From the NCBI GenBank assembly GCA_002708845.1, contig PAPI01000018.1:62001-126000 (forward strand): a DNA stretch of 64,000 nt, read 5' to 3'. The translations under genes and the position numbers were made by a program. The DNA is from Leeuwenhoekiella sp. (GTDB lineage: Bacteria; Bacteroidota; Bacteroidia; Flavobacteriales; Flavobacteriaceae). Shown here piece by piece: positions 1,486 through 50,905 of this stretch (positions are counted from its first letter, which is position 1; every line of letters starts with the position of its first letter). Under the pieces are notes generated by a model. The model did no database searches. It was given only the letters and a program-made list of their open reading frames with translations, and was not told the DNA's origin.

Positions 1486-3798
1486 ATGAACTACTTTAAA
1501 TATAAAACCCTTATCACCGCCGCAAGTTTACTTGCGGCTGGTGTTTTTACTATACAGGCACAGGAAGATCTTGCTAAATATGTAGACCCGATGATTGGTA
1601 CTGCAAAAATGGGACATACCTATCCGGGTGCAACCGTACCATTTGGAAGTGTACAATTAAGTCCAGATACTGATACTATTCCCTATGCTGTAAACGGGCG
1701 TTATAATCCGGACGTTTACAAATATTGTGCAGGTTATCAATATGAAGATTCAACTATCGTAGGTTTTAGTCACACGCATTTTAGCGGCACGGGTCACTCC
1801 GATTTGGGTGATTTTCTGGTAATGCCTACGGTTGGAAAACTTCAATTAAATCCCGGGACCGAAGCAAATCCCGATAGCGGTTATCGCTCGCGATTTTCTC
1901 ATGATGAAGAAACCGCTGAAGCAGGATACTATTCCGTAAATCTAAAAGACTACGGTATTAAAGCTGAGCTTACTGCAACCACGCGTGTAGGAGTGCATCA
2001 GTACACCTTTCCTAAAAGTGAGCAGGCTCATATCATTCTTGATCTAAAAGCCGGAATTTACAATTACGAGGATAAAAATGTCTGGACGATTGTACGTGTA
2101 GAAAATGATTCAACCATTACCGGTTATCGTCAAACCAGTGGCTGGGCGCGTACGCGTAAGGTCTATTTTGCAATGACGTTTAGCAAAGCTTTCAAAAGCT
2201 ACGGCCAGGAAAAACAACCCGGACAAGTATATCGGGGTTTCTGGGGACGTTTTGACCAAACCCGTAATTTTCCTCAGATGGCCGGTAAAGACTTACGCCT
2301 GTATTTCGATTTTGATACCGAAGAAAACGAAGCTATTCAGGTTAAAATGGCATTATCTCCTGTGAGTACCGAAGGAGCCTTAAAAAATATGGAAACAGAA
2401 GTGCCCGAATGGGATTTTGATGCCGTAAAAAATCAAGCCCGTACTGCCTGGAACAAAGAATTGCAAAAAGTAACTGTTGAAACCTTAGAAGAATCTGATA
2501 AAGTAAACCTGTATACTGCCATGTACCACGCCTTTCTTGGGCCTACGGTTTATATGGACGTAGACGGAAAATATATGGGACTTGATCGCAATGTGCACGA
2601 GGCAGATGGTTTTACCAATTATACCAGCTTTTCACTGTGGGATACCTATAGAGCCCTTCATCCCCTATTCAATATATTACAACCCAGGCGCAATCAGGAT
2701 ATGGTGCAGTCAATGATGGTTCATCAGGAGCAAAGCGTACACCATATGTTACCCATTTGGTCTCATTATGCTAATGAAAACTGGTGTATGATTGGCTACC
2801 ACTCCGCTTCGGTTATCGCAGACGCTATCGTAAAAGGCAATTCAGATTTTGATCAGAATGCTGCACTCGATGCTTGTGTGCAAACGGCCAGAACGCGCTA
2901 CTTTGATGGTATTGGCGATTATATCGATATGAAATATGTTCCAGAAGATAAAAGTGGAGCTTCCGTATCAAAAACTCTGGAATACGCTTATGACGATTGG
3001 GCTATAGCACAGGCAGCAAAAAAATTGGGTCGCGATGAACTATATAATGAATTTATTGAGCGCTCCACCTACTGGAAAAATGTTTATGATAAGTCTATAG
3101 GCTTTATGCGCCCTAGGCTGAGTGACGGAAGCTTTAAAAAAGATTTTGATGCACTTAATACACACGGGCAGGGATTTATAGAGGGTAACAGTTGGAATTA
3201 CAGTTTATACGTACCTCAGGATCCAGCCGGAATGATTGACTTCATGGGTGGAAAAGAAAAATTCAGTACACATTTAGATTCATTATTTACCATGGAGCTT
3301 CCTGATAAGTATTTTGAAAATACAGAAGACATTTCCCGGGAGGGAATCATCGGGAACTATGTTCACGGTAATGAGCCTTCCCACCACGTGGCGTATCTTT
3401 ATAATTGGACTGACGACGCTTATAAAGCTCAGGATAAAATCAGAATGATTTTAAAGGAGAAGTATATGACTGGCGCTGACGGTTTGAGCGGCAATGATGA
3501 TTTTGGTCAAATGAGTGCCTGGTACTTATTCAGTAGTTTAGGCTTTTATCCTGTAGCTCCCGGTTCTGTAGATTATGCCTTAGGAAGTCCGGCTGTTAAG
3601 GAGGCAACACTGAATCTAGATAACGGAAATACATTTACAGTGGAAGCTAAAAATCAATCTGAAAAGAATGTATATGTACGTAAGGTAGAACTCAACGGCG
3701 AAGAACTTACCGAACCTTTTATAACACATGATCAAATTATGAATGGCGGTACGCTTACCTTTTATATGAGTAGAAAACCTAACAAAGACCTGTATTAA
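1486..3798 (+). CDS. GH92 alpha-mannosidase, secreted
   Basis: This is a full-length GH92 of 770 residues. A signal peptide covers about residues 1-25 (hydrophobic ITAASLLAAGVFTIQAQ, with no lipobox Cys), so the enzyme is probably soluble in the periplasm. The N-terminal beta-sandwich opens with YVDPMIGTAKMGHTYPGATVPFG, matching the usual GH92 start. Catalytic-domain motifs are SLWDTYRALHP, EGNSWNYS near 566, YVHGNEPSHH near 626 and DDFGQMSAWYLFSS near 671. It trims terminal alpha-mannosyl units. It follows the truncated GH92 closely and precedes the haloperoxidase fusion by 18 bases. Its last ~180 bases recur, degraded, at 7940-8121. Divergence from the other GH92 copies here suggests a different linkage preference, which is inference. 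Confidence 0.95.
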   Translation: MNYFKYKTLITAASLLAAGVFTIQAQEDLAKYVDPMIGTAKMGHTYPGATVPFGSVQLSPDTDTIPYAVNGRYNPDVYKYCAGYQYEDSTIVGFSHTHFSGTGHSDLGDFLVMPTVGKLQLNPGTEANPDSGYRSRFSHDEETAEAGYYSVNLKDYGIKAELTATTRVGVHQYTFPKSEQAHIILDLKAGIYNYEDKNVWTIVRVENDSTITGYRQTSGWARTRKVYFAMTFSKAFKSYGQEKQPGQVYRGFWGRFDQTRNFPQMAGKDLRLYFDFDTEENEAIQVKMALSPVSTEGALKNMETEVPEWDFDAVKNQARTAWNKELQKVTVETLEESDKVNLYTAMYHAFLGPTVYMDVDGKYMGLDRNVHEADGFTNYTSFSLWDTYRALHPLFNILQPRRNQDMVQSMMVHQEQSVHHMLPIWSHYANENWCMIGYHSASVIADAIVKGNSDFDQNAALDACVQTARTRYFDGIGDYIDMKYVPEDKSGASVSKTLEYAYDDWAIAQAAKKLGRDELYNEFIERSTYWKNVYDKSIGFMRPRLSDGSFKKDFDALNTHGQGFIEGNSWNYSLYVPQDPAGMIDFMGGKEKFSTHLDSLFTMELPDKYFENTEDISREGIIGNYVHGNEPSHHVAYLYNWTDDAYKAQDKIRMILKEKYMTGADGLSGNDDFGQMSAWYLFSSLGFYPVAPGSVDYALGSPAVKEATLNLDNGNTFTVEAKNQSEKNVYVRKVELNGEELTEPFITHDQIMNGGTLTFYMSRKPNKDLY

Positions 3799-3816: not shown

Positions 3817-6800
3817 ATGAAAGGAAGGGATATTGTTAAAAGTAAAAAAGCAAGTACGTATGCATTGATGCTTGTTCTTGTGGCTTTATTTTCTTGTAAT
3901 ATATGCCTATCGCAGCAATTTGAACGTGTTGAAACCTTGATTGGCTTAGGAAATCTGGAAGAAAACAATTCTGTCTCCGTGGCTGATATAGATGGAGATT
4001 ATGATCTGGATATTTTTGTAGTTGCCAAGGCAAAAGACAAATCGGGGGTTGAAAAGTCCCATAGCCGCTTGTTAAGGAATGATAATGGCGCATTCACTGA
4101 TATTACTGCATCATCCGGGTTGGTGAATTTACTGCCGGAGGATGGAATTTCCGATTTTCACCCCGGCTTGGGAGGCCATAAGCTGGGTTCTTTTTGGGGG
4201 GATTATGACAACGATGGTTTACCTGATCTCTTTCTTACCCATTATTTAAAAGTTCAACTTTTTCAAAACCGAGGCAATGGCTATTTTGTTGATGTAACCG
4301 AACAATCAGGAATAAGTGGAAATATAGATTGTTTCATTACCGGTGCTACCTGGACAGATTATGACAATGATGGGTTTTTAGATCTTTTTATTAATGATTG
4401 GGGAAAATGTGATGACGAGATTTTGTATAAAAACAATAGAAATGGCACCTTTTCAAAAGTTTCCATTGGGCTTCCCAATACAGGGTCAACATTCAACATG
4501 TTACCTTTCGACTTTAATAATGACGGATATAAAGATTTTTATATAACCAATGACTTCGAGAAAGAAAACCTGCTCTATATAAACCACAACGGTAGCACTT
4601 TTGAGGAAAAAGCTAATGATTATGGTTTAAACAGTACCATTGATGATATGGGGATAACCGTTGGGGATTTTAATCTGGACGGATTTTTTGACTTTCTTAT
4701 ATCAGGAATCAATACCTATGCGCTTTATCAAAACAACGGTAACAATTATTTTGCTGAAACATCCAGGGAAAATGGATTGATTGCGAAAACAACAAAATGG
4801 TCCTGGGCGACACGATTTGCAGATTTTGATTTGGATGGAGACGAAGATATATTTATTGTAAATGGCTTTGTAGACACTGACCCTCAAACCAACGTTTATT
4901 ATAAAAATTTATATAAAGAAGGCCAAAGTAAATTTGAAGATCTTTCCAGTGAAGCTAACTTAGATGACCTATCAAAGAGTCTGGAGGCTGTCGAGTTTGA
5001 TTATGATAACGATGGAGATTTAGACATTTTTGTAGCATGCAATGACAGACCTTCCTTTTTTTATGAAAACAGGACCATCAATTACGGTCAGAATAGCACA
5101 CACAAATGGTTTAAAGTAGCTTTAGAAGGAACCGTTTCGAACAAAAATGCCTACGGAACAAAGGTGGCCATTAAGACCAGCGGAGGAAATTACGTAAGAT
5201 ATTTTAGTGGCGTGGGAATGCTGTCGCAAAATTTGACACCAGTTCATTTTGGGCTTGCAGAATCGGATAAAGTAGATGAGTTAACGATATTTTGGCCCTC
5301 AGGCCTGGTTGAAACCTACTCAAACATAGAATCCAATGTGTTAATCAAAGCCACAGAGGGGAATGGGTTTGAAGTTATTGATTTGGCTCCTGTTGCTAAG
5401 GTGTTTGGATGTACAGATAAAAATTCGTGCAACTACAACCCAATGGCTACCATTAGCGATAATAGTTGCGAATATATTCCATCAGGGGTCGTTACTGGTT
5501 CAGAACAATCCGGTTTTGGCAAAACAGAAAGTTATGAATATCAATCTGGAATTGGAGATCATTTTATCTGGAGCGTAGAAGGTGGTGAAATTCAAAACGG
5601 CCAAGGCACCAATATAATCTCAGTTAAATGGGGTTTGGAAAAGAGCGGAAGAATTAAAGCCGTAAACAAAAGTGATAATTGCTCCAGTTTACCGGTATAT
5701 CTGGAGGTGGATTTAAGTGTAAAGAATACGCTAGAACATATATCAGTTGCCAGAATATGGAATGAAGCTTTGCTGGAGGCCATTCGTAATGATTATGCAA
5801 GACCTACGGTTCATGCCAGAAATCTATTTCACACATCTGTGGCAATGTTTGATGCATGGGCTATTTATGATCAGGAAGCTCATCCTTATCTCGTGGGTAA
5901 AAAAGTGCATGGTTTTGAAAGTAAATTAGAGCAATTTACTCCAAAAGAAGAACTCAGCGCGTCGATGGATAAAGCTATAAGTTATGCCGCCTATCGTTTG
6001 TTGAGCTATCGTTTCAAGAACTCCCCAGGAGCAGAAAGCACCTTAAAACGATTCAATACAATCATGAATCAGCTTGGATATACCATTTATGATACCTCTA
6101 TTGATTATAAATCTGGGAATGCTGCCGCGTTAGGAAACTTTATAGCAAAAACAGTTATTGATTATGGAAAAGTTGACGGTGCAAGAGAATCAAGCAATTA
6201 TGATAATGGATTCTATAATCCCGTTAACCAACCTCTTATACTTGAAAATTTAAATAATGAGCATATCGATTTAATCGATGCAAATAGATGGCAACCCATT
6301 TCCTTTAATAATTTTGTAGATCAGAGTGGAAACTTGATTCGAGGATCAACACCTGATTTCCTGGGAGCCGAATGGGGTAGTGTTGACCCTTTTTCATTAT
6401 CCGCTGAAGATAAGTCTACTTTTCAAAGGGACGGTTTTAATTTTGAGGTGTACCATGATCCCGGACCTCCTCCCTATCTTAACGAAAAAGAACAAACCCC
6501 AATCAGTGATGCATACAAATGGAATTTTTCGTTGGTATCACTATGGAGTTCACAATTGGATGCAACCGATGGTGTTACTTGGGATATATCACCCCGCAAC
6601 ATAGGAAATATCGATTTTGAAAATTTGCCTAAATCAGTTTACGAATACCCAGATTTTTATGATTTATATAACGGAGGAGACATAAGCACAGGCCGTAGTC
6701 TTAACCCGGTTACAGGTAATCCATATTCAACACAAATGGTCCCAAGAGGTGATTATTTGCGGGTTTTGGCGGAGTTTTGGGCGGACGGTCCAGATTCAGA

Positions 6801-7851
6801 AACGCCACCTGGACATTGGTTTACCATTTTAAACTATGTGAATGACCATCCACTTTTTAAACGAAAGTTTAAAGGTAAAGGTGATGAACTTTCGCCATTG
6901 GAATGGGATGTCAAGGCCTATTTTATACTATCTGGAGCAATGCACGACGCTGCCATTGCCGCTTGGGGAATAAAAGGGCGGTATGATTATATAAGACCCA
7001 TTTCAGCCATTAGATATATGTGTGAGTTAGGACAATCTACTGATACGAGTTTGCCAAATTACAATGTAGGTGGTATTCCTTTAGTGGAAGGTTATATTGA
7101 AATAGTCAATGAAGGCGATCCATTAGCTGGTTTGAACAATAAAAATGTAGGCAAAATAAAACTCTATGCGTGGAAAGGACACAGTTTTATAGATAATCCT
7201 AATGTAGACGTTGCAGGGGTAGGTTGGATACTGGCAGAGAACTGGTGGCCCTATCAAAGGATTTCTTTTGTTACACCCCCATTTGCTGGTTATATATCTG
7301 GGCATTCTACCTTTTCAAGAGCAGCTGCAGAAGTATTGACATTAATGACGGGCAGTGAATTCTTCCCAGGGGGAATGGGAGAATTTAAAGCGGTTAAAAA
7401 TGAATTTTTAGCTTTTGAAGAAGGTCCATCTGTTGATGTAACCTTGCAGTGGGCCACTTACCGTGATGCTTCTGACCAATGTAGTTTGTCAAGGATTTGG
7501 GGAGGTATTCATCCACCAGCAGATGATATTCCGGGTAGGTTAATTGGTAAACAAGTTGGTGAAGAAGCTTTTAGTTTTGCACTGCCTTATTTCACCTCTG
7601 ACCCCAACCAAAATAACAACCAAGACTTTTCGGTATTCCCAAATCCAAATACGTCTAAATTCTTTTTTGTGACTAACAGTACATCCGCAGATGTGTTTCA
7701 GGCATATGATATGAGCGGAAAAAATTTACGCATAGAAGTTGATTTTGATAAATCGCGCGAAACTGCAACAATTGAGTTTCCCAACTCAATTTCAGCTGGT
7801 GTCTATGTCCTGAAGAAAAACAAGGTATCTAAACTAGTAGTAATAAATTAG
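3817..7851 (+). CDS. FG-GAP/UnbV propeller fused to vanadium haloperoxidase (PAP2) domain, type IX secreted
   Basis: The 1344-residue product starts with a signal peptide (ALMLVLVALFSCNICLSQ). Seven Asp-rich calcium-loop repeats follow (for example DYDNDGLPD near 129, DYDNDGFLD near 182, DFNNDGYKD near 231, DYDNDGDLD near 395), which predicts a seven-bladed FG-GAP propeller. An ASPIC/UnbV segment (FGLAESDKVDELTIFWPSG) comes next, then a cysteine motif GCTDKNSCNYNPMAT near 531. The C-terminal half has the whole vanadate-binding signature: KGRYDYIRP near 1053 (K-x6-RP), SGHSTFSR near 1157 and SRIWGGIH near 1225 (SR-x5-H). The tail VFPNPN...GVYVLKK is a type IX sorting domain, so the protein is probably exported to the surface or medium. 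Activity could be halide oxidation or phosphatase chemistry, since the folds are shared. Placement inside a mannan locus is odd. Confidence 0.88.
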   Translation: MKGRDIVKSKKASTYALMLVLVALFSCNICLSQQFERVETLIGLGNLEENNSVSVADIDGDYDLDIFVVAKAKDKSGVEKSHSRLLRNDNGAFTDITASSGLVNLLPEDGISDFHPGLGGHKLGSFWGDYDNDGLPDLFLTHYLKVQLFQNRGNGYFVDVTEQSGISGNIDCFITGATWTDYDNDGFLDLFINDWGKCDDEILYKNNRNGTFSKVSIGLPNTGSTFNMLPFDFNNDGYKDFYITNDFEKENLLYINHNGSTFEEKANDYGLNSTIDDMGITVGDFNLDGFFDFLISGINTYALYQNNGNNYFAETSRENGLIAKTTKWSWATRFADFDLDGDEDIFIVNGFVDTDPQTNVYYKNLYKEGQSKFEDLSSEANLDDLSKSLEAVEFDYDNDGDLDIFVACNDRPSFFYENRTINYGQNSTHKWFKVALEGTVSNKNAYGTKVAIKTSGGNYVRYFSGVGMLSQNLTPVHFGLAESDKVDELTIFWPSGLVETYSNIESNVLIKATEGNGFEVIDLAPVAKVFGCTDKNSCNYNPMATISDNSCEYIPSGVVTGSEQSGFGKTESYEYQSGIGDHFIWSVEGGEIQNGQGTNIISVKWGLEKSGRIKAVNKSDNCSSLPVYLEVDLSVKNTLEHISVARIWNEALLEAIRNDYARPTVHARNLFHTSVAMFDAWAIYDQEAHPYLVGKKVHGFESKLEQFTPKEELSASMDKAISYAAYRLLSYRFKNSPGAESTLKRFNTIMNQLGYTIYDTSIDYKSGNAAALGNFIAKTVIDYGKVDGARESSNYDNGFYNPVNQPLILENLNNEHIDLIDANRWQPISFNNFVDQSGNLIRGSTPDFLGAEWGSVDPFSLSAEDKSTFQRDGFNFEVYHDPGPPPYLNEKEQTPISDAYKWNFSLVSLWSSQLDATDGVTWDISPRNIGNIDFENLPKSVYEYPDFYDLYNGGDISTGRSLNPVTGNPYSTQMVPRGDYLRVLAEFWADGPDSETPPGHWFTILNYVNDHPLFKRKFKGKGDELSPLEWDVKAYFILSGAMHDAAIAAWGIKGRYDYIRPISAIRYMCELGQSTDTSLPNYNVGGIPLVEGYIEIVNEGDPLAGLNNKNVGKIKLYAWKGHSFIDNPNVDVAGVGWILAENWWPYQRISFVTPPFAGYISGHSTFSRAAAEVLTLMTGSEFFPGGMGEFKAVKNEFLAFEEGPSVDVTLQWATYRDASDQCSLSRIWGGIHPPADDIPGRLIGKQVGEEAFSFALPYFTSDPNQNNNQDFSVFPNPNTSKFFFVTNSTSADVFQAYDMSGKNLRIEVDFDKSRETATIEFPNSISAGVYVLKKNKVSKLVVIN

Positions 7852-7939: not shown

Positions 7940-8121
7940 TAACGGAAATACATTTAAAGTGGAAGCTAAAAATCAGACAAAAAAAGAATGTCTATGTGCG
8001 TAAAGTAGAATTAAATGTAGAACCACTTACCGAGTCTTTTATTAAACATGATCAAATTACGAGCGGTGGAATGCTTACCTTTTATAGGCACAATAAACCC
8101 AATAAGAATCTTTATAATTAA
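7940..8121 (+). pseudogene. Frameshifted remnant of a GH92 3' end
   Basis: This stretch aligns with the last 178 bases of the complete GH92 (3621-3798). Both begin taacggaaatacattta and carry through to the stop. Translated with one extra A removed from the A-run near 7978-7984, it reads NGNTFKVEAKNQ, KNVYVRKVELN, HDQI..GGMLTFY and KPNKNLY, then a stop at 8119-8121. By eye about three quarters of the residues match the intact gene. Nothing of the upstream GH92 catalytic domain is present. It is best read as the surviving end of a duplicated GH92 whose body was lost or displaced when the haloperoxidase gene came to lie between the two copies. It is not expected to be functional. Confidence 0.85.
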
Positions 8122-8125
8122 ATTT

Positions 8126-8818
8126 ATGAGCGCGTATATTAAATTTTCAGTTTGTATAAGTATGATGTTATGGAGCGGTATTTTCAGTTTAAAAGCGCAG
8201 GATTGGCCCAATCTAAAACGCTATGAAGAAGCTAATCAACAAATTAATAGGACCAATGCTCCCGACAATCGTGTGGTTTTTATGGGAAATTCTATAACCG
8301 AAGGATGGGTTAGCGCAGATCCTGATTTTTTTGAGAAAAACAATTTTATTGGTCGTGGTATTAGTGGACAAACTACCCCTCAAATGCTTCTGCGTTTTAG
8401 ACAGGATGTAATTGATTTAAATCCAGTTGCCGTAGTAATACTTGCGGGTACTAATGATATTGCAGGTAATACCGGCCCCATGACTACGGAGCAAATTTTT
8501 GACAATATTGTCTCAATGGTAGAATTGGCGAAAGCTAATGACATACAAGTTATTATCTCTTCTATTCTACCGGCAGCAAATTATCCCTGGAAACCAGAGG
8601 TTGCTTCTGTTGCGCCTATTTTAGAGTTAAATATGATGCTAAAATATTACTGCAAAGGAAAAGGTCTGGTTTATCTTGATTATTTCTCTGCAATGGCAAA
8701 TGAAGAGCATGGACTTCCTAAAGCCCTTTCTCAAGATGGAGTACACCCTACTCTTGAAGGGTATCAGGTTATGAAACCATTGGCACTTGAAGCCATTAAA
8801 AATGTTTTACAAAATTAA
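8126..8818 (+). CDS. SGNH/GDSL-type esterase, secreted
   Basis: An SGNH-fold hydrolase of 230 residues when started at 8126; an earlier in-frame ATG at 8048 lies inside the GH92 remnant and would disrupt the signal peptide. From 8126 the N-terminus MSAYIKFSVCISMMLWSGIFSLKAQ is a good signal peptide. Block I is FMGNSITEGW with Ser near 55, block II GRGISGQTT supplies the Gly, block III LAGTNDIAGN the Asn, and block V DGVHPTLEGY the Asp-His pair near 204. Such periplasmic enzymes often remove acetyl groups from polysaccharides. Sitting at the end of the GH92 operon, it may deacetylate mannan-derived oligosaccharides; the substrate is inference. It ends just before a bidirectional terminator. 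Confidence 0.88.
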   Translation: MSAYIKFSVCISMMLWSGIFSLKAQDWPNLKRYEEANQQINRTNAPDNRVVFMGNSITEGWVSADPDFFEKNNFIGRGISGQTTPQMLLRFRQDVIDLNPVAVVILAGTNDIAGNTGPMTTEQIFDNIVSMVELAKANDIQVIISSILPAANYPWKPEVASVAPILELNMMLKYYCKGKGLVYLDYFSAMANEEHGLPKALSQDGVHPTLEGYQVMKPLALEAIKNVLQN

Positions 8819-12961: not shown

Positions 12962-15148
12962 TTATTTGGTTTCCAGTTTTAATGATCCTCCCTGAGTCAG
13001 TTGATCCTGACTTAAAAAATAACCATCTAAGGCTGTTCCATTAAATTTTACTTGTTTTAATTTTCTTGAAGTACCCGTTTTGGTAATTTCCAAAGAACTG
13101 TTACCAATATTCCACATAACACGATCAAAAATTGGAAGTGAAATAAGGTACTCGTTATCTGCAGGTGACAAAGGGTATAAGCCTGAAGCCGCAAATACAT
13201 ACCAGGCGCTCATCTCCCCTGCATCGTCCATACCGCTTAGTGCTAATCCATCTGCACCAATTCCATAATAATCCTTAAGAAGCGTATCAACAATCTGCTG
13301 TGATTTTTCAGGTTTATTTATAAAATAATAAGCAAACGGAGCTTCGTGATCCGGTTGGTTTCCGTGGCAATATTGCCCCAGAAATCCGCTTACATTTCGT
13401 GCAATATGCTTAGGATTCCACAGGAATGTAAAAAGAGAATCCAATTTTGATTCAAAAGCGTCTTCGCTTTCGTATAAATTTACGAGTCCCGGCATATCGT
13501 ACGGCACATAAAACGAAAGCTGCCAGGCATTGGCTTCGCGATACATATATTCGTAATAGGGATATTCTGAATCAAACGGATTTATAAACGATCCATCCGC
13601 GAGCTTTCCCCGCATAAAATGAGTTTTGGGATCAAACACATTTTTGTAATTCTTAGACCGCTGCAGCAATTCGTTAGCATTTTTATCATCATTTAAGGCT
13701 TTCGCCAAAACTCCTAAACTGTAATCATCAAGCGCATACTCCAGGGTTTTTGAAACTCCGGCCTTAGCTTTAGTTTCGGTATTCGGATTTTTAACATCGG
13801 GGTCAGAAATAAAGCCTTTTTCAATGTATTCTTCAATATACGGTCGGGTTCCACCGGCTTTGTAAGCATTATTCAATAACAATTCGTAGGCTTTTTTAAC
13901 ATCAAAATTGGTAATGCCTTTTCCATACGCCTGCGCTACAAAAGGGGCAGCATGATCTCCGTGAAAGAATGTAGGCATAAAACCACTATACGAACCCTTG
14001 TCAACTAGAGATTGAATAATATCTCCTGTAACCTCCGGAGACAGTAAACTAAGTAACACTAGCTTATTACGATAGGTGTCCCATAATGAGGGATTTGTAT
14101 AATACCTAAATCCTTTATTTTGAACCTTGCCTGCCTCGTCCTTAAATTCTCCATTGGCATCACTACGCAGTGCCGGCCATTGCATACTACGATATAAGGA
14201 AGAGTAAAAAAGTTCTTTCTCTTTTTCGGTTCCACCGGAAACCTGAATCTTATTTAAAACTTTACTCCATACATCTTTTGCATCCTTGTGTACAGTCTCA
14301 AAATCCCGGTTGCTTAACTCCTTCTGAAAATTTTCTTTAGCATTAGCTATACTCACAAAAGACAAACCTATTTTTAGGGTGACGGGCTGATCCTCTGCGT
14401 CCAAAATAACGATTGAATAACCATCTCTCTTCCCTTCTTTTGTAGTTTCTAAATTTTGAACCGTCTCGTTAAATTCTGCATAGAAATGAACTTTATCGCC
14501 TCCGGTTCTCTGATAACCTTCTACAGCATTAGTACCCGCCTTTTCAATATGCCATTCATCAACACGATTATTAGCGCGGGACAAATCAAAAAGTACCTTA
14601 TGCACTTTATTGTCGTCAAAGGTATATTTGTGAAAACCACCGCGCAAGGAAGTTGTCAATTCAACCTTCACCTTGTAATCGTCAAGATAAACGCTGTAAT
14701 AACCCGGTGATGCCTTTTCAGTTTCTTTTCTAAAATTCGATTTAAAGGGTGCTTTAGCATTTTCTGCCAGGGGTAAAACCGGAATGTGGCATAAATTCCA
14801 ATGGCCTTTATTAGTATGCGTAAAACCAATGATTTCAAAGTCTTCATACTCATACCCTGCTCCACTTCCATACTTCGTAATGGGACTCAGTTGTACCATC
14901 GCATTGGGCAAAGTAGCGCCTGGATAGGTCAGGCCTGCCCACACCCGCCAGCCCTCAGGGGGCGTATATCCTATAAATGCCGGATCTGTAAGGGGTGCGG
15001 TACCTATAAATGGGTTAACATAACTGAGTAAGTCTTCACTACGTGTTTCCGATTCCTGTGCTTTATCAGGAGTTTTACAACTAAGCACCAAAATCATAAA
15101 ACTCAGCAGAGCCATATAAACACCAATGCTCCCATTTGATTTTCTCAT
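12962..15148 (-). CDS. GH92 alpha-mannosidase lipoprotein
   Basis: GH92 of 728 residues. The N-terminus MALLSFMILVLSCKTPD has a lipobox (LVLSC), so it is a lipoprotein. The beta-sandwich opens YVNPFIGTAPLTDPAF. Catalytic-region motifs differ from the other copies: EANAWQLSFYVPYD near 539 (Gly replaced by Ala after the acid Glu), YCHGNQPDHEAPF near 593, and DDAGEMSAWYVFAASGLYP near 641 where the usual Gln of GQMSAW is Glu. These changes point to a separate GH92 subfamily and likely a different linkage or aglycone. It is 11 bases after GH125, with which it shares an operon. Confidence 0.93.
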   Translation of the reverse strand: MRKSNGSIGVYMALLSFMILVLSCKTPDKAQESETRSEDLLSYVNPFIGTAPLTDPAFIGYTPPEGWRVWAGLTYPGATLPNAMVQLSPITKYGSGAGYEYEDFEIIGFTHTNKGHWNLCHIPVLPLAENAKAPFKSNFRKETEKASPGYYSVYLDDYKVKVELTTSLRGGFHKYTFDDNKVHKVLFDLSRANNRVDEWHIEKAGTNAVEGYQRTGGDKVHFYAEFNETVQNLETTKEGKRDGYSIVILDAEDQPVTLKIGLSFVSIANAKENFQKELSNRDFETVHKDAKDVWSKVLNKIQVSGGTEKEKELFYSSLYRSMQWPALRSDANGEFKDEAGKVQNKGFRYYTNPSLWDTYRNKLVLLSLLSPEVTGDIIQSLVDKGSYSGFMPTFFHGDHAAPFVAQAYGKGITNFDVKKAYELLLNNAYKAGGTRPYIEEYIEKGFISDPDVKNPNTETKAKAGVSKTLEYALDDYSLGVLAKALNDDKNANELLQRSKNYKNVFDPKTHFMRGKLADGSFINPFDSEYPYYEYMYREANAWQLSFYVPYDMPGLVNLYESEDAFESKLDSLFTFLWNPKHIARNVSGFLGQYCHGNQPDHEAPFAYYFINKPEKSQQIVDTLLKDYYGIGADGLALSGMDDAGEMSAWYVFAASGLYPLSPADNEYLISLPIFDRVMWNIGNSSLEITKTGTSRKLKQVKFNGTALDGYFLSQDQLTQGGSLKLETK

Positions 15149-24042: not shown

Positions 24043-26394
24043 CTATTCCATTTGAAACCAACCTGAGTTAGGTTGATCACCAAGTTTATAACTCAATTCT
24101 ACACCTTCTTTTAACTTTTGCAGACTAATACTGTTTTTGTGATAAGGATTGCCATCAAGTTCTACATTTTGAATATAGTAGTTATTGGGGCCGTTATTAT
24201 GTGTGTCTATTATAACGGTACTATCCCATCCTGTGGTAATTTCAATTTTATCAAATAAGGGCGTGCTTAGTTGAAAAGACGGATCTATTTCTACCAGTCC
24301 TTTAACATCAAATAATCCCATCGCAGCCATATTGAACCATGCACCCAACTGCCCCTGATCTTCGTCCTGTCCATAGCCATAACCATGCACGGCCTCGGTT
24401 CCATAAAAATCATCAGAAATTTTGCGCACCCATTTTTGAGTGAGCCAGGGTTTATTGGTAAAATTAAACAGATAGGCTATGTGCAAATTGGGCTGATTTC
24501 CTTGATTATATAAATAATTAAGTCCGGCAAATGCATCAATATCTTCTCCTCCAAACTTGGTTTTTTCCGACACTGTGAAAATAGAATCTAAACGTTTTAC
24601 AAATTTTTCCTCACCCATCTTCTCCACTAACTCGTGTGGTTGATGGGGTACATAAAATGTGTATTGCCATGCATTACCCTCCTGATAACCAATCCAGGGT
24701 TCAAACGGGTCAAAATTGGATAAATACTCACCCTTTCCATCTTTTGGACGAATAAAATCAGTTTTTTCATCATATAAATTTTTCCAATTATCTGCGAGCT
24801 GCATCAATTCCTGATATTCCTTCTCTTTTCCTAAAGCCTTTGCGAACTGAGCTACAGCATATGCACTATAACAATATTCTAAAGTATGTGATACGGAAAA
24901 TGCAGAACCTTCAGGTGAAGTATCCCAACCAGGCTGGTAGACAATATAACCATCATTGATAAAACCTTTCAAATCAGTTTTACCTGCACCTTCAATACGT
25001 TCTTTATAACGTGTTTCATTTTCATAGGCAGCTTTAAAAGCTAATTCTACGTCGTAATCCCGTATTCCTGCCTGATAAGCTGAAGCTATGATAAGACTTA
25101 CAAAATTTGTACCCACACCAGAAACAAATCGAGAATTTGCAAGGCCATCTCCTAACCATCCCGAATTTTTATAAACCGCTAAATGGGTTTGAACTAGGTC
25201 ATTATAATATTCTGGCCAGGCAATGGTCCATAATTGGGTAAGATTCCAAAAACCTCCCCAGATCGCGTCGGTATTGTAAAAATTGAATGTTGGTTTACCA
25301 TCATTATCAAGCGGGATTTGACCAACGCTGCCATCATTTTCAGGAAATTGACCGTTTACATCACTAGCTAAACCTCTTCCTAAAAGTGCGTGATAAAGTC
25401 CGGTGTAGAACTTAGTCTTATTTGTATTAGAAGAGTCTGTAACTTTAATTTTTGAAAGTTCATCTTCCCATTTTTCTTGTGCATTTACAAGTGCTTCATC
25501 AAATGATAGATTTTTAGCCTCGGCATCTAAATTTGCTTTAGCATTCTGGATTGATGTATATGAAAAACCTGCTTTCAATTCTATAGGTTCATCCTGCTCA
25601 GTTTCAAATCGTAAATAAAGACCTACTCCCTCACCGGAATTTTGAAGCACATTTTTGTATTGCTTTTCATGAATAAAAGTTCCGGCCTCAACAGGTTTTT
25701 TATTGATCTTACCTGCAACGAACATTTTGACTTCAGCGCCCTCCTGATATTTCTGAACATACTTAGGATAGGTAGATACCCAGCCTGTAAAAGTTTGATC
25801 TTCTGAATTATAAGACACTTCAGCATTTTTTACATCACCGCTTTCTCCCAACTCATTACCTATATCTAAAATGACATACGCGCTATCACTTGCCGGGTAG
25901 GTATATTTATGAAAGCCCACGCGTTTAGTGGCGGTGAGTTCTGCCGTAACATCATAATCCTTTAGCTTAACTTTATAATACCCAGGACTGGCATGCTCCT
26001 CATTACGATCAAATCGAGACCGGTAACCGGTATCAGGATTTTCTACATCTCCAGGAATCGTTTTTAACTTTCCTGTCATTCCTGTAAATAAAAAACCTCC
26101 AATTTGAAATTCATGCAAGTTTGCAAACCCCTCTATAGTATTATCTCTTGAATCATAACCAGTTGCTTCCCAACCTTGCTCATTTCCTAGACTTCCATTA
26201 GTTGAAGGGCCCAATTTGGCCATGCCAAATGGCAAAGCGGCGGGTGTATAAAAAAACCAACGACTATGTGCAGTTCCTATGTTAGGATCTACGTATTCGG
26301 AGTACGACTCTTGCGATTGTACCAGACTTACTGTGTTATCAGCATTTTGACAGGAAATAAAAAGTGCCAAACAAACAAATAGTAATTTATACAT
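24043..26394 (-). CDS. GH92 alpha-mannosidase lipoprotein, divergent
   Basis: GH92 of 783 residues with lipoprotein leader MYKLLFVCLALFISCQNAD (lipobox near residue 15). The beta-sandwich starts YVDPNIGTAHSRWFFYTPAALPFG, which differs from the usual GH92 opening. In the catalytic region EGNAWQYTFYVPHQP near 571 is kept, but the usual HGNQP is NQGNQPNLH near 628 and the base motif reads DEDQGQLGAWFNMAAMGLF near 678. These replacements suggest a distinct subfamily. It is 3 bases after the MFS gene and so is part of the GntR-isomerase-ROK-transporter group, linking sugar release and uptake. Confidence 0.93.
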   Translation of the reverse strand: MYKLLFVCLALFISCQNADNTVSLVQSQESYSEYVDPNIGTAHSRWFFYTPAALPFGMAKLGPSTNGSLGNEQGWEATGYDSRDNTIEGFANLHEFQIGGFLFTGMTGKLKTIPGDVENPDTGYRSRFDRNEEHASPGYYKVKLKDYDVTAELTATKRVGFHKYTYPASDSAYVILDIGNELGESGDVKNAEVSYNSEDQTFTGWVSTYPKYVQKYQEGAEVKMFVAGKINKKPVEAGTFIHEKQYKNVLQNSGEGVGLYLRFETEQDEPIELKAGFSYTSIQNAKANLDAEAKNLSFDEALVNAQEKWEDELSKIKVTDSSNTNKTKFYTGLYHALLGRGLASDVNGQFPENDGSVGQIPLDNDGKPTFNFYNTDAIWGGFWNLTQLWTIAWPEYYNDLVQTHLAVYKNSGWLGDGLANSRFVSGVGTNFVSLIIASAYQAGIRDYDVELAFKAAYENETRYKERIEGAGKTDLKGFINDGYIVYQPGWDTSPEGSAFSVSHTLEYCYSAYAVAQFAKALGKEKEYQELMQLADNWKNLYDEKTDFIRPKDGKGEYLSNFDPFEPWIGYQEGNAWQYTFYVPHQPHELVEKMGEEKFVKRLDSIFTVSEKTKFGGEDIDAFAGLNYLYNQGNQPNLHIAYLFNFTNKPWLTQKWVRKISDDFYGTEAVHGYGYGQDEDQGQLGAWFNMAAMGLFDVKGLVEIDPSFQLSTPLFDKIEITTGWDSTVIIDTHNNGPNNYYIQNVELDGNPYHKNSISLQKLKEGVELSYKLGDQPNSGWFQME

Positions 26395-28544: not shown

Positions 28545-30335
28545 CTATTTTAAATAAGCATTTATCACTTTAGCTCTTTCAGACCCGAGATTTATTAGCT
28601 TAAAACTTTCTGCCGCGGCAGGAACCACAAAGGTTTCCGCATATCCCAATTTCTGCTCATATCCCTCTTTGGTTTCAATGCTTATCTGTTGACCTTCAAC
28701 TAACATCATAACCTGACAGGAATCGTGAGTTTGTACCTCTATACTTTCATCAAAATCAAAGCGTCTTACGTCGTAGAAATGATCTGGATGAGTAGGATAG
28801 TGATAAACTTCAAATTCATTTTCGCTTTCCAAAAGCTGCGTATTCGAAAATAATTCTTGAGATACCTGCTCTCCTTTAAGGTGAAACTTTAAGTTCTTAA
28901 ACGCGTGATTGATATTGATTGGACGTGGCTTTCCGTCAAGGTCAAGCCTTAACCAGTCATACATTTTAAACGTGAAAATATAAGGAGTAGCGCTTATTTC
29001 TAATACCATATTACCCGAACCCGCACTATGTATAGTGCCATTAGGGATAAGATAAAGCTCGTGCTTTTTAGATTTATGTTGCTGAACATAATCTGTAATT
29101 GAAATTTCAGATCCATCCTGCTGACTTTTCTCAAGCGCTGTTCTAAATTGATCAGGATTTATATCCTCCTGAAAACCCAAATAAACACTGGCATCCTTTT
29201 TACAATCTAAAATATAATAACATTCATCCTGAGTAATATTCTCACCAAAAACCTGCTGAATATATTCTAGACTCGGATGGCATTGTATAGAAAGATTACC
29301 TCCATTATAAGTATCCAAAAAATTAAAACGAATTGGAAACTCATTCCCAAATTTCTTGTAGTGTTCACCTAACACATTCTCTGCTTCCTGATTCATTAAA
29401 AAGTCAAATGAAATCTCCAAAAGTTTCTCTTCACTTTGAAAAAGTATGCCGTTTTCAGGGACAATTAATGAAAAAGCCCACGCATAATTGGGAACCTCAG
29501 TATTGAGACCTGTAATATGCTCTTTAATCCATTCGCCTCCCCAGGCTCCGGGCTCAAACCAGGGCCGTACTCTAAAGACGGATTTACTCATTGACTTAAG
29601 TGCTGTACTTAGTTCAGGCATTAAAGCCCATGAAGGGTTTTCATCGTGCTGCCCATCTACAATAACATCAATGTATGAGGCTAACTTCTTTTTTTCAGCA
29701 TTGAGTACTATCCAATCAATAAAATAGAAATGCTTATAGGTTTTAAAATCTTCTTTTCGTGAAAATATGCCAAGATTTGTAACGCTGCCAGCACGCATAC
29801 GATACTGAAGCTCATTTTTAGGTAAATCAAAATAAACTAAGCTACCATCAACATTAGCCAGACTCGCACCACATCCATAAACAATATTAACATCTACATC
29901 CTCTTGAACTTGAATGGATCTTAATTTAGAATTATCGAAAAAATCTACAAGATTCAAATCTGCTCGTGTTCCCCATACTGATTCCTCTTCTCCCAAAAAA
30001 GGCTCTATCATATTTTGAATAGAACCCTCAGGCTTTAAGCAGGAATCAATATTAATTAGATTTACGCTCAAACCTTTTTCTTTCAGTTTAGAAGCGAATA
30101 AGGTTATTATAAGCTCCCAATTTATGCCTGAAAATCCATCTAAACAGATCATTTTTTGATCTGATAAATAATCAGCAAGATCGGCGTAACCCATATTAAT
30201 TTTACCAGGACCAAGCTCATAGGCTGGATATAAATCAAAATTTAGATTTGAACCCTTCTCGCCCTTAACTTGCGGCATGAGAAACTGACTGGTTTTTCTT
30301 TTCAATGGTGCCAATATATCTGTATTACCCTTCAA
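28545..30335 (-). CDS. Class I mannose-6-phosphate isomerase with degenerate P-loop-like N-terminal domain
   Basis: A 596-residue protein, much longer than the ~300-400 residues of ordinary type I isomerases. The C-terminal half carries the cupin zinc site: RVRPWFEPGAWGGEW near 249, GGNLSIQCHPSLEY near 350 (Gln/His ligands) and LIPNGTIHSAGSGNMVLEIS near 434. The N-terminal ~240 residues look like a nucleoside-kinase fold: MICLDGFSGINWELIITLFA near 62 sits where a Walker A loop would be but lacks the GK[ST], and FYFIDWIVLNAEKK follows. It would convert mannose-6-phosphate to fructose-6-phosphate in the cytoplasm. The role of the N-terminal domain is unknown. A strong inverted repeat lies just upstream of the start. 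Confidence 0.85.
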   Translation of the reverse strand: MKGNTDILAPLKRKTSQFLMPQVKGEKGSNLNFDLYPAYELGPGKINMGYADLADYLSDQKMICLDGFSGINWELIITLFASKLKEKGLSVNLINIDSCLKPEGSIQNMIEPFLGEEESVWGTRADLNLVDFFDNSKLRSIQVQEDVDVNIVYGCGASLANVDGSLVYFDLPKNELQYRMRAGSVTNLGIFSRKEDFKTYKHFYFIDWIVLNAEKKKLASYIDVIVDGQHDENPSWALMPELSTALKSMSKSVFRVRPWFEPGAWGGEWIKEHITGLNTEVPNYAWAFSLIVPENGILFQSEEKLLEISFDFLMNQEAENVLGEHYKKFGNEFPIRFNFLDTYNGGNLSIQCHPSLEYIQQVFGENITQDECYYILDCKKDASVYLGFQEDINPDQFRTALEKSQQDGSEISITDYVQQHKSKKHELYLIPNGTIHSAGSGNMVLEISATPYIFTFKMYDWLRLDLDGKPRPININHAFKNLKFHLKGEQVSQELFSNTQLLESENEFEVYHYPTHPDHFYDVRRFDFDESIEVQTHDSCQVMMLVEGQQISIETKEGYEQKLGYAETFVVPAAAESFKLINLGSERAKVINAYLK

Positions 30336-31316: not shown

Positions 31317-34300
31317 TTATTCCACCATTAGTTTTTCGTAAAAAACTTTTGAATCTGCTTTAATTTGCACGATGTAAACACCTTTAGAGAATGTTGATGT
31401 ATCAACTAGCATTCTTGATTTGTTTTTATAGGCCTGTTCAAATACATTCCTTCCATTTAAATCATAGATAAATAAATTAATTTCATTAACTGGTTCATCA
31501 AGTACCACATTGAATGCAGCCTCTGAAGGATTGGGGAATAGTTTAACACCCACTCCTTTTTTGAGATCGTCAATTGAAGCCGTTGCCTCTTTCATTGTAA
31601 TACGGGTTTCTTCATTTACAGAGCGCTCGTTGAGGTGAATATTAACGATTCCCTGCTTCAGCCACCAGCCTTCACCTGATGCGGCTTCTATTTGCGACAA
31701 TTCTTTTCCATTTAACCGTATAGCTTCCGGTAAAATATTATGTACTTCAATATCATAAGTGCGCGCTGTAACGTTGCCTGTAAAATTACCCAACTGTGCT
31801 GGTATGGTTAGCTCCTTATTTGCGTTGTTGTATGTTATTCTGGTAGTCGCATAAGCTCCATTTTTAAAAGCTAATCCTGTACCTGCATCTTCATACATAA
31901 TAAATTCACCATCTGCTCCTGCATAAAGTTTAATTTGGAGGGTATCCAAAGGTTTTTGTCCCAAATAATCTGAATACGGTTTTAGGGGAATTATACCTCC
32001 TGCTTTCACAAATGCAGCCATAGCATTGTAATCGGCTGAAACTGTCTTTACGGTAGGGCCTGTAATTTTTTTATCTGTGAAAAAATTAATCCAATCCCCT
32101 TCAGGGAACCATACTTCTGTAGAAGCAACTTCTCCGGGCTTAGTTATAGGTGAAATCAAAATATTTTCACCAAAAAAATATTGCTTTTCGTAGGTATAAG
32201 ATTCTGATGCTTCAGGATAATAAAAATACATACCACGTACAATAGGCATGCCTCCTGTTGAAGCCTCATGTGCAAGTGAATAGGTATAGGGAACTAATGC
32301 ATGACGCAGACGTATAAACTTTTTGGCCTGTTCTTCCACCTCAGGATATTGCCAGGGCAATCTGTAGCTGTCGTCGTGATCATCAGAATGTAATCGGAAA
32401 ATGGGCTGAAAGATTCCAAATTGTAACCATCGAATGTATTTATCATCAGATAGTGTTCTTCCTTTAAAACTTCCCATATCGTGGGAAACGTATGGGATTC
32501 CCAAATTTGCCTCCCTAATCGTAAATTTTGATTCAAACTCAAGCAACTCCCAGTCATCAAAAGTGTCTCCTGTAAAATGTAAAGTATATCGGTGATCAGA
32601 CCATGCCATATCTGGAGGACCAGACTTGCCATAACCTTTGTACCCGTCACCTATGCGTGCAAATGAGAATGGACGTAATCCTCTTTCTGCTCTGTCATTA
32701 GCATACAAATGACTCAACCAGGTTTCGGTAGGTAAGCCCTCTACTTCCAAATCTACATATTCATCTACCCAGTCTGGCCACCAAAAATCAACCCCTTGCT
32801 CACTAAAAGGTCTATGTAAATCGAAATATGCTTTAGAATGGTTTTTATTACTGTAATCAAAATGATAACGGCCGTCATTATTCTCATCAATGAGCCCCCC
32901 TGCGCTTGCATTTGTCTGACCAAATTTTGGGTCATCCCGTTGAATTGTCGCGTGTATATTTAAAGAAATTTTTAACCCTTCATCTTCTGTCCAGTCTAAA
33001 AACTCTTCTGGATTTGGAAAAAGCTCAGAATTCCAGTTCCAGCCATTCCATTGGTTTGGTGACTTCCAGTCGGTATCAATAACAAGTACATCCAGGGGCA
33101 TTTTTTCAGCTCTAAACTTTGGAAGTAATGTTTCCTTATAATAGCTACTTGAATATGGTTCATATTTAGAATACCAAACTCCAAAAGCCCAGCGGGGAAG
33201 TAAGGGCGGAGTTCCAGTCAGGTCATAAAAGTCTTCAAGGGCTTTTTGATAATTTGTTCCATAACCAAAGAAATACCCATTTTGATACCCTCCCTGATGC
33301 TGGGGTCTGGTAGCTGGCCAACCATCGTCACCCATTAATGCGGTTTTACTATCATCGAGTAAGTACCAGCCTTCCCGACTCATTATCCCATCCCATAAGG
33401 GCACTTCGCCAGATTTAATGTCTAAAGACCTCAATCCTCCTCCAAGGTTAGCTTCTCCAGCAGTATCTGCATCTGGAATAGATTCGCCTTCTAAACTTAC
33501 AGCCAGCCAATCTATATTTACATTACCTGAATCTCCATCATCATAAAGAAGTTTGATGTGATGAGGTCCATTAGTCAACGAAACCTTTTTTTGAACAATT
33601 TCCCAGTCGTCCCAGTTAGCAGTTTTAGGTAGTGACAGCTCTGTTTTAACGTCGTCAATGCTTAAACTTAGAGTTCTGGTAGTATGCATACCGTCTCCTC
33701 CTGATCCATTTGCATATCTAATGGATACTATATACTCCCCTGAAGATTGTGTATTATCAAAATGATAATTCATAGCGGCTCCTTCAGAACTAATTCCACC
33801 TATAAAACCACTTCCGGTATAACCTGAATGGTCTGTATTTATAGACGCTGGTCCTTCTAATACGGCATTTTCGGCCTCATAAACCTCATTAAAATCTGCT
33901 ATAGGATGTAGAGAAATATAATCTACATTGATGTTATGCGTATCACCAGCATCAGCCACGAATTTCATTAGCGGAGCTCCTTTTGGTAAGCTAATAGGTT
34001 GTTGTAAAAGGCCCCAGGTATCCCAGTCTGCCGTAGCGGGAAGCGCGATTTGTGTTTTAACCCCATCTACATAAAAACTCATGGTACGCGTCGTATGTTG
34101 CCCGTCTCCTCCGGTCCCATTTCCATATTTTATGGCCAACATATATTTCCCTTCGGGTAATTGCTCTGCCTGCCAGCTCATACCTGCTCCTTCCTGCTCT
34201 AATCCCGCAACAAATCCGGAACCGCTAAATCCCTCATGATTTGTTGCAATGCTCGCACTTCCAATCAAATTCATTTCTTCAGCTTCCTGTTTTTGAGCTG

Positions 34301-48664: not shown

Positions 48665-48892
48665 CATATCAATGGATGTTTGAAATAAATAGAAAAGCAT
48701 ACTAAAATGTGCCTAGCTGAACATTAATAAACCTAATCGATTAATTTTTTTATCCGACTCAAAGTTCCATCCAATTAGTAAACAAGGTCAAGAGACATGG
48801 TTATTGAACTAGAATTAGTATCAATTATAAATATTCTTTCTTGCACTAAACTCTTTTATAAAAGAATTATTTCTGAATCTAAAATTATTAAA

Positions 48893-50905
48893 ATGATAAA
48901 AAAGCAGATAAGCTTATTGTTAGTCCTACTCTTAAACTTCTTTTTGCTAAAAAGTCACGCTCAGGAAAAAGATAACTATTGGAACATTTCTCCTTCAAAA
49001 AGCATTGTTTGGAATGTAAACACAACTGATTCCTATCCACATGCAGATAATATCGAAATGTCTGGAAAAAAGATTTCCGCAATAATTTACTACGATGTTA
49101 ATAAGGATAAAGAACTAAGTCTAAAGCGTGAAATTATATATCCGCAATTAAGAACTATTGAGGAAGATTGGAGAAAATACCGAGCATATTATAAGAAAGT
49201 CTACGCAGATGAAATTGAACCAACAATTTCAAAAGGAGGTTCTAATTTGGTATTCAAAAAAGTCGACTCTGTAAAGATTAATGGTAAAATTACTTTTTAC
49301 CATACTCCGGTACAGGAGATAATTCTTAAAAGAACCCTGTTTTCATCTATGAATCAAAGAGTATTTGTGGAAAATTGGGAATTAATAAATACGAGTGACA
49401 AAATAAAAGAATTACAGATCGGTAAGACAGATACGCTTGATCAACTGAGAGGATACAAGGGAAAGTACACCAGTCATGTTTATAATGATGCTGATAGCAC
49501 AATTAACCTGCTCCCCCACTCATCTTATAATTTCACGCTCTATTTTTCTGCAGCTATTGATCAAGAACCTATAAAAGGCTTTAAATACGAGGAAATTGAA
49601 AAGGAACGGAATCAATTTCTCCAAAAAATTGAAGAAAATCTTGTTTTAGAAACGTCAAATCCTGTAATAGATCAGCTTTTCTATTTTTCAAAAATACGTG
49701 CTTCTGAAAGTATTTTTGAGTCAAAAATGGGATTGGTACATTCACCCGGAGGAGGTAATTATTACATAGGTATTTGGGCAAATGATCAGGCGGAATACAG
49801 CGGTCCTTTCTTCCCTTTTTTAGGCTATAAAACGGGTATTGAAGCAGCAAAAAATGCCTATCTCATGTTCTTAAAAAATATTCCTGAAGATTCTTCTCCA
49901 ATATGCTACTCATTTGAGATTGATGGTGAGCTCCCCTCCTGCGGTAAAGACAGAGGAGATGCCGCTATGATCGCATACGGAGCGTCCCAGTTCTTACTAC
50001 GAAATGCTGATGAAAAGTTTGCCAAAAAGATATGGCCGTTAATTGAGTGGAGCCTCAACTATTGCCAAAATAACAGGAATAAAGAAGGGATTGTTTTATC
50101 AGAAACAGATGAGATGGAAGGCAGAATATCTACAGGAGAAGCAAACCTTTCAACAAATTCGTTGTACTATGGAGGACTACTAAATGCCTCATACCTTGCA
50201 AAAGAACTTGGTTTTCATAAGTTGTCTTCTCAGTATTTAAAGCGCAGTGTTGAAATGGCTAATGCTATCGAGGAGTACTTTGGAGACAACATAGAAGGCC
50301 TAAATACCTATCGTTATTTTAAAGGAAATACCCATCTCAGACATTGGATCTGTTTACCGCTGGTTATGGGAATCGAAAAAAGAGCGGAAGCAACTGCCAA
50401 TGCACTTCTCGAAAAACTTTGGACAGCAAATGGGGTTTTAGTTGAACTAAATCCCGGCTCAACTGAGCCCGATGTTTTTTGGGACAGAGGAACTTTATAT
50501 GCCTTAAGAGGAACCTTTAAAGCTGGATTATTTGATCAGTCTCTTAAAAAGTTAGTTGATTACTCAAATAAAAGACTATTAGGAGATCACGTACCCTACC
50601 CTATAGAAGCTTTTCCTGAGAATAATATGAAACACCTTTCCGCAGAGAGTGCTTTGTATTGTAGATTAATTATTGAAGGGATATTGTCATTTGAGCAAAC
50701 TGAGTTCAATTCTTTTAGTATTACACCACAACTAAATGAAGATCTATCCAATTTAAGTCTCAAAAATCTATATATCGGTAAAAACGCCATTTCAATTAAC
50801 CTGGAGTTGATACAAGATAAAATTGACACAAAAATTTATATAAATGGAGTTGAGCTTATTAACAAAATGGTCAAAGCCGGTGAAAAAGTGACTATTAAAA
50901 TATAA
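48893..50905 (+). CDS. Six-hairpin (alpha/alpha)6 glycosidase-like protein, secreted
   Basis: About 670 residues from 48893; the frame is open from 48797 but only the ATG at 48893 (MIKKQISLLLVLLLNFFLLKSHAQ) puts the signal peptide at the N-terminus. The N-terminal 260 residues look like a beta-sandwich; the rest has alternating helical segments and motifs such as HSPGGGNYYIGIWANDQAEY, DRGDAAMIAYGASQFLL, SETDEMEGRISTGEANL, LNTYRYFKGNTHLRHW and GSTEPDVFWDRGTLYALRG, as in six-hairpin glycosidases. The acidic residues in EIDGELPSCGKDRGD and DEMEGR are candidate catalysts. I do not recognise the precise family. It follows the HTCS and may be part of its regulon. Confidence 0.7.
   Translation: MIKKQISLLLVLLLNFFLLKSHAQEKDNYWNISPSKSIVWNVNTTDSYPHADNIEMSGKKISAIIYYDVNKDKELSLKREIIYPQLRTIEEDWRKYRAYYKKVYADEIEPTISKGGSNLVFKKVDSVKINGKITFYHTPVQEIILKRTLFSSMNQRVFVENWELINTSDKIKELQIGKTDTLDQLRGYKGKYTSHVYNDADSTINLLPHSSYNFTLYFSAAIDQEPIKGFKYEEIEKERNQFLQKIEENLVLETSNPVIDQLFYFSKIRASESIFESKMGLVHSPGGGNYYIGIWANDQAEYSGPFFPFLGYKTGIEAAKNAYLMFLKNIPEDSSPICYSFEIDGELPSCGKDRGDAAMIAYGASQFLLRNADEKFAKKIWPLIEWSLNYCQNNRNKEGIVLSETDEMEGRISTGEANLSTNSLYYGGLLNASYLAKELGFHKLSSQYLKRSVEMANAIEEYFGDNIEGLNTYRYFKGNTHLRHWICLPLVMGIEKRAEATANALLEKLWTANGVLVELNPGSTEPDVFWDRGTLYALRGTFKAGLFDQSLKKLVDYSNKRLLGDHVPYPIEAFPENNMKHLSAESALYCRLIIEGILSFEQTEFNSFSITPQLNEDLSNLSLKNLYIGKNAISINLELIQDKIDTKIYINGVELINKMVKAGEKVTIKI

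Follow-up and report, generated by a model that had tools for sequence, protein, structure and literature searches.

What is a predicted vanadium-dependent haloperoxidase (V-HPO) doing in one chain with a CRTAC1-like propeller, and why does its gene stand among genes for alpha-mannan degradation? We addressed both questions for a fused gene in a Leeuwenhoekiella genome, using a 64,000-nucleotide stretch of DNA (contig PAPI01000018.1, positions 62,001 to 126,000), here called the window. A first-pass annotation had described the gene as a type IX-secreted fusion of an FG-GAP/UnbV propeller and a vanadium haloperoxidase, had counted it as a member of the alpha-mannan locus, and had left two readings of its function, oxidation or removal of phosphate. 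Our analysis suggests that the protein is probably an exported V-HPO with its own CRTAC1-like propeller, which would place the production of hypohalous acid at a surface or ligand. The fusion is a new variant of known families, with known V-HPO and CRTAC1-like parts in one chain. Its position within the mannan locus is a lineage-specific insertion, apparently a chance one, with no evidence for a mannan substrate; relatives away from such loci are common.

The gene occupies positions 3817..7851 on the forward strand and forms a single open reading frame (ORF) of 1344 amino acids (aa), from an ATG start to the stop codon with no internal stops. The protein was searched with the Pfam and NCBIfam profiles. 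Its domain order is a putative signal peptide (recognised by eye), an FG-GAP propeller, a UnbV/ASPIC domain, a Cys-rich and beta-stranded linker, a V-HPO domain and a type IX secretion system (T9SS) tail. In the first half, FG-GAP_3 matches at E 4e-34 and UnbV_ASPIC at E 1e-14 (residues 445-508); in the enzyme half, DUF6851 matches at E 1.5e-12 (residues 674-827) and VCPO_2nd at E 1.4e-10, with 41.9 bits for a cut-off of 27. The tail (residues 1273-1340; 7633..7836) is recognised as a C-terminal sorting domain by TIGR04183, the T9SS sorting profile, at 26.5 bits and thus above the cut-off of 23; the Pfam sorting domain PF18962 scores 23.4 bits, below its own cut-off of 27. By these signatures, the fused protein is apparently exported via type IX secretion. 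The coordinates, domains and pocket motifs given in the first-pass annotation were all recovered.

The V-HPO domain comprises approximately residues 641-1266 (5737..7614), as delimited by Pfam, AlphaFold2 and Foldseek. An AlphaFold2 model of residues 620-1266, built on an alignment of 34 relatives, reached a predicted local distance difference test (pLDDT) score of 81.7 and a predicted template modelling (pTM) score of 0.87. In a Foldseek search of 350,542 PDB chains, each of the top 16 matches (E 2e-13 to 4e-7) is a V-HPO or the homologue NapH3; among them are NapH1, NapH3, XhnO11, Curvularia chloroperoxidase (CiVCPO) and Zobellia iodoperoxidase (VIPO). Algal and cyanobacterial bromoperoxidases match weakly (E 0.02 and worse), and phosphatase folds follow far behind, with a lipid phosphate phosphatase at E 0.82 (9l0i) and a PAP2 phosphatase at E 3.2 (5jki). 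The model, the fold matches and the VCPO_2nd score above cut-off all point to the two helical bundles of VCPO-type V-HPOs. PF01569, the Pfam PAP2 family, gives no match in the 1344-aa protein at E 0.001, and the gene is not among the six PF01569 places of the genome. The structural comparison proposed in the first-pass annotation, V-HPOs against PAP2 phosphatases, therefore came out on the V-HPO side; of its two readings, the oxidising one fits folds and pocket better, and the phosphatase is not favoured.

The pocket motifs consist of W1050, K1053, R1060 and P1061 (W-x2-K-x6-RP; 6964..6999), F1156, S1161, G1162 and H1163 (F-x4-SGH; 7282..7305), and R1226, H1232 and D1236 (R-x5-H and HxxxD; 7492..7524). 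All of these residues are identical in 116 of the 117 ORFs of the class, which come from 115 loci (two rows are one gene from two sources); the remaining ORF (L048) ends before the motifs. The vanadate-pocket claim of the first-pass annotation is thus borne out at the level of sequence, and the pocket loss that it named as refuting is not seen there. The CiVCPO set of vanadate residues is matched at identical spacing in the same 116 ORFs; Gly403 is, we assume, a further residue of that pocket. The vanadate-binding residues of CiVCPO are given in an excerpt of PMC10278073 as Lys353, Arg360, Ser402, His404, Arg490 and His496. Trp350 and Phe397 are added in part of PMC9144378, the latter being present also in iodoperoxidase. 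Curvularia numbering was transferred to the fusion by equal motif spacing, not by residue-level structural alignment. The V-HPO pattern in the available text of PMC10427571 reads PxYxSGHA and LxxxxAxxRxxxGxHxxxD, and its catalytic letters, YxSGH and RxxxGxHxxxD, are present in the fusion, whereas four of its other letters differ.

The first half of the protein (approximately residues 31-509; 3907..5343) has the make-up of the CRTAC1 family, an FG-GAP propeller followed by UnbV/ASPIC, as judged by Pfam, sequence, AlphaFold2 and Foldseek. Strict calcium-loop motifs, Dx[DN]x[DN]G, occur at residues 129, 181, 232, 284, 336 and 395, spaced by 51-59 residues. Six repeats of the 'seven-repeat' propeller in the first-pass annotation therefore stand on strict motifs, and the seventh is a degenerate one recognised by eye near residue 57. 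The AlphaFold2 model of residues 31-645 (pLDDT 90.5, pTM 0.83) finds its best Foldseek match in murine CRTAC1 (9etn; E 7e-25), with a root mean square deviation of 3.6 over 544 alignment columns. Among the lower matches are lectins, for example the Psathyrella velutina lectin at E 6.5e-9, alongside further propellers, sensor domains and large proteins of no evident relation. Between the halves lies a linker (approximately residues 516-640; 5362..5736) which has no Pfam match; its Cys-rich GCTD..C motif and Ig/PKD-like region were named by eye, and its beta strands are those of the AlphaFold2 model.

This architecture is not peculiar to the window. A scan of genome contigs confirmed at least 588 relatives, and it recurs among them, with an ORF of more than 1300 aa in 75 of the 80 best loci. 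In the family, 129 of 397 Flavobacteriaceae genomes give a match (E 1e-30 or better) when the whole protein is the query, in many cases over a single half; both halves are spanned by 53 listed rows in 48 of the 397 genomes (hand count). A sample of 148 genomes from the wider order yielded 14 with any match (E 0.001) to the enzyme half; in four, the window's own included, it reaches E < 1e-200. In a tree of 88 rows, the window protein groups with members from Flavivirga, Maribacter, Algibacter and Aestuariivivens in a nine-member set (SH-like approximate likelihood ratio support 99). A single clean origin of the fusion was rejected: the tree requires 9 changes of the fused label, 7 of them forced by starred branches, in a count that scores L015 and L057 (768 and 811 aa, on short contigs) as standalone, although both look cut or broken. 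Further fused forms of 1250-1433 aa, with no room for the linker, occur within an otherwise standalone branch. Two fused-gene copies were seen per fetched stretch in L048, a Seonamhaeicola metagenome-assembled genome, and in L039, Tamlana nanhaiensis.

Propeller and enzyme also meet as separate genes. The window's genome encodes two more V-HPO homologues, of 497 aa on contig C1 and 451 aa on contig C11, both of which match Pfam PAP2. The 497-aa gene sits behind a 1115-aa FG-GAP/UnbV gene preceded by SusC- and SusD-like genes (named from sequence). On C11, at 88-108 kb (L142), the 451-aa gene comes behind a tandem of three FG-GAP/UnbV genes, each about 1100 aa; its product matches Zobellia VIPO (4cit) at E 7e-207. 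Across 13 genomes of the genus there are 82 UnbV matches, or about 1.5 per Mb, a density from which about 2% of random 12-kb stretches would be expected to hold one (an estimate with no shuffled control). Of the 21 non-fused V-HPO genes among the matches listed for the genus, 18 have a UnbV gene within 4 kb (hand count): 11/11 of the 451-aa class, 7/8 of the 497-aa class and 0/2 of the others. Outside the genus, 20 loci were sampled per V-HPO class. Here, a UnbV gene lies no more than 2 kb upstream of the V-HPO gene in 19 of the 20 loci from the 451-aa class (the exception is L196); 18 have no gene-sized gap to it, and 16 show two such genes. The coupling is real and holds for two V-HPO lineages, one by fusion and one by neighbourhood. 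The two are distant from each other, and in the neighbourhood lineage the peroxidase can be accompanied by as many as three propeller genes in tandem, each about 1100 aa. At L250 (3227-10389), SusC- and SusD-like genes open a row that continues with a free-standing 1139-aa FG-GAP/UnbV gene and ends with a 1250-aa UnbV-V-HPO fusion.

From the domain make-up, fold similarity, sequence-level pocket and FG-GAP/UnbV with V-HPO recurrence computed here, we infer export, vanadate binding, halide oxidation and a role for the propeller. The signal peptide and type IX tail would carry the protein across the outer membrane. The propeller, with its Ca-loop motifs and with lectins among its fold relatives, could bind a surface, a glycan or a partner. 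The C-terminal double helical bundle would hold vanadate via H1232 and, with H2O2 from the environment, convert halide into hypohalous acid by oxidation. More tentatively, and with rather less than even confidence, we suggest that CRTAC1-like FG-GAP/UnbV proteins may be dedicated V-HPO partners in Flavobacteriaceae, with the propeller serving a halogenation machine on the outer surface as its module for halide, substrate or surface. The biochemical role of the CRTAC1 family is, to our knowledge, unclear; if the suggestion is true, the family gains a testable function.

Several observations weigh against these proposals. The enzyme, metal and secretion roles draw their support from sequence and model, and the fold itself does not fix the reaction, as NapH3 has the V-HPO fold but a different reaction (PDB title). 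Foldseek TM-scores are moderate, the top match scoring 0.50 by query and 0.67 by target. Equivalents of W350 and F397 are also found in 20/20 members of the iodoperoxidase-like class, so the halide is not predictable from these residues. Furthermore, the published pattern is not followed in all its spacer letters: A1157, S1164, A1218 and S1223 stand where it has P, the final A, L and A. As for the partnership, 0/20 loci of the 497-aa class from outside the genus have an adjacent UnbV gene (one has it at about 4 kb), and the closest standalone relatives of the fused enzyme (721-846 aa) have a UnbV gene within about 6 kb in 0/20, which implies that the enzyme can work without a propeller. The UnbV profile used for these counts was built from this family and the window's own genome only, and could miss distant UnbV domains. 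A UnbV link general to every V-HPO was rejected on these two classes.

NapH3 also underlies the alternative that survives best, namely that the protein is a V-HPO-fold enzyme which no longer oxidises halide and instead acts like NapH3, which catalyses an alpha-hydroxyketone rearrangement. NapH3 is the second-best fold match and among the best PDB sequence matches. The SGH histidine, however, is kept in 116/117 ORFs, a weak argument, since SGS is what the alignment shows for 9l8x, a protein described as a halogenase. We regard a NapH3-like activity as unlikely and a haloperoxidase as the better reading.

How, then, did the haloperoxidase gene come to lie in a mannan locus? The window holds GH92 genes (215-1465, 1486-3798, 12962-15148 and 24043-26394), GH125, GH76, GH97 and SusC/D, enzyme families that point to alpha-mannan as the substrate. 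Immediate neighbours are as named in the first-pass annotation (Pfam). The GH92 at 215-1465 is only the 3' part of a longer gene, with an open frame of 780 aa, whose start lies before the window. The GH92 at 1486..3798, on the forward strand like the fusion and separated from it by 18 bp, is part of the older mannan locus. Downstream on the same strand lies a GDSL esterase, called as an ORF from 8048 to 8818. Its in-frame ATG at 8126 (8126..8818) is the more likely start, as ATG 8048 lies inside a relic of the GH92 3' end. This relic (7940..8126, forward strand) is frame-shifted and identical at 141 of 181 positions to the intact copy at the 3' end of the resident GH92 gene (3621..3798, forward strand).

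The full fused protein is present in 1/13 genus genomes, the window's own (one of the others is 81% complete), whereas the neighbouring GH92 (1486-3798) is kept at 81-95% identity in 9/12 other genomes. The fusion is absent from all nine of these orthologous loci. In five, GH92-GH92-GDSL-ROK are contiguous, with the GDSL gene directly behind GH92; in the remainder, GDSL is also missing (n=1), other genes lie between (n=2) or the downstream genes differ (n=1). Since the GH92 3' end is duplicated and the GDSL gene follows straight on from the relic, just as it follows GH92 in relatives, the sequence indicates that the fused gene was inserted between GH92 and GDSL together with a duplicated GH92 tail. 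The decay of the relic implies that the insertion is not recent. Base composition gives no foreign signal: GC content is 0.386 and that of third codon positions 0.318, and 13 other genes of the window range over 0.37-0.41 and 0.26-0.36. No mobile element was found among the window genes named by Pfam, although no search aimed at mobile elements was made. A promoter and terminator scan was uninformative (15 promoters against 15.8 in shuffles; 5 terminators against 3.6), and there are no DNA tandem repeats of note within the gene. The junction took different inserts in different species: the genus relative L183 carries about 3 kb with two ORFs between GH92 and GDSL, a sugar isomerase-like one and a 514-aa cytochrome c plus VCBS-like repeats (names given by eye).

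Selection might still have recruited the gene to the mannan operon, co-transcribed with GH92, so that oxidation loosens or disinfects mannan-rich walls. The 18 bp gap on one strand would suit this, as would an insertion old enough for the relic to drift while the fused ORF stayed open. Among the 80 best of the at least 588 homologue loci (70 with both 10-kb flanks and 10 shorter, all counted), SusC and SusD are both within 10 kb in 11 (SusC only in three more), so some members do sit in carbohydrate loci. Yet GH92, sought with the window's four GH92 proteins only, lies within 10 kb in 2/80 (L040 and L060, both with full flanks), and then 7.5 and 9.9 kb off; the window protein does not group with these two loci in the tree. 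The commonest neighbours, in 34-35 of the 80, look like housekeeping genes (ABC transporter ATPase-, SprT-like- and mannose-1-phosphate guanylyltransferase-like), their names read from sequence with no family search. With the gene found in a single genus genome besides, we give recruitment little credence. A mannan partnership as a general rule was rejected on the homologue neighbourhoods, the nine orthologous loci and the genus distribution together, and membership of the locus, as the first-pass annotation had it, is not supported: homologues lie at unrelated genomic places, the outcome it had itself named as refuting. This removes a misleading lead, as there is no sign that alpha-mannan loci generally contain such an enzyme.

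Least probable is a phosphatase of PAP2 mechanism stripping phosphate from phosphomannan of the locus: although V-HPO and PAP2 have the pocket in common, apo-VCPO was caught dephosphorylating (3bb0 title; part of PMC9144378) and the HxxxD after the axial His is retained in the fused protein's class, Pfam PAP2 matches the genome's other two V-HPO homologues but not the fused protein, the nearest phosphatase folds lie at E 0.8 or worse against 2e-13 for V-HPOs, and a conserved mannan context was found in neither the 80 best homologue loci nor the nine orthologous ones.

Elsewhere in the window, a 1736-aa chain (31317-36527) combines GH43, ricin-type lectin repeats, CBM6/35, GH31 and a T9SS tail. 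At 54595-60816, the genes of a caa3-type oxidase (COX2 with cytochrome c, COX1, COX3 and CtaG) precede those for a Rieske protein and for a cytochrome b that ends in a cytochrome c domain. Two long ORFs, of 596 aa (28545-30335) and 702 aa (48797-50905), have no Pfam match even at E 0.01.

The fusion and the neighbour pattern point to one little-studied surface device for reactive halogen in the widespread Flavobacteriaceae, of relevance to how iodine and bromine are cycled and to life on seaweeds. On Ascophyllum, Zobellia raises vIPO3 (PMC9296495, in part), and an Arenibacter strain that accumulates iodine carries at least five homologues of the Zobellia iodoperoxidase gene (PMC5064120, in part). 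The fusion also offers a handle on what CRTAC1-like propellers do. We found no literature pairing haloperoxidase with UnbV, CRTAC1, FG-GAP or VCBS repeat, in a search whose coverage mostly leaves out subscription journals.

Comparing the fusion with known systems reveals partial likeness to each. The Zobellia galactanivorans vanadium iodoperoxidase (4cit/4usz) shares its V-HPO fold and pocket residues with the fusion; within the iodoperoxidase class this extends to the Phe and Trp equivalents, and the class is found near FG-GAP/UnbV genes in 19/20 sampled loci. Unlike the fusion, it is a separate gene of about 450 aa without a fused propeller, its class has HxxxA rather than HxxxD, and its relative in the window's own genome has no DUF6851 match. 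The V-HPO half is found at 27-33% identity in DUF6851/'vanadium-dependent haloperoxidase' genes of Nostoc and Rhodobacteraceae plasmids, whereas no one place in the 33 plasmid records searched covers 80% of the fusion.

The double helical-bundle fold is that of Curvularia inaequalis vanadium chloroperoxidase (1vnc, 3bb0) and Streptomyces NapH1 (3w36), and the vanadate residues stand at the spacing of the Curvularia enzyme, with low identity to both (12-15%). These two presumably carry neither propeller nor sorting tail. Murine CRTAC1 (9etn) and bacterial CRTAC1-family proteins share the other half, an FG-GAP propeller plus UnbV/ASPIC. Whereas the 9etn chain has 551 residues and CRTAC1 is, we take it, without an enzyme domain, the 1344-aa fusion joins such a propeller to a haloperoxidase fold.

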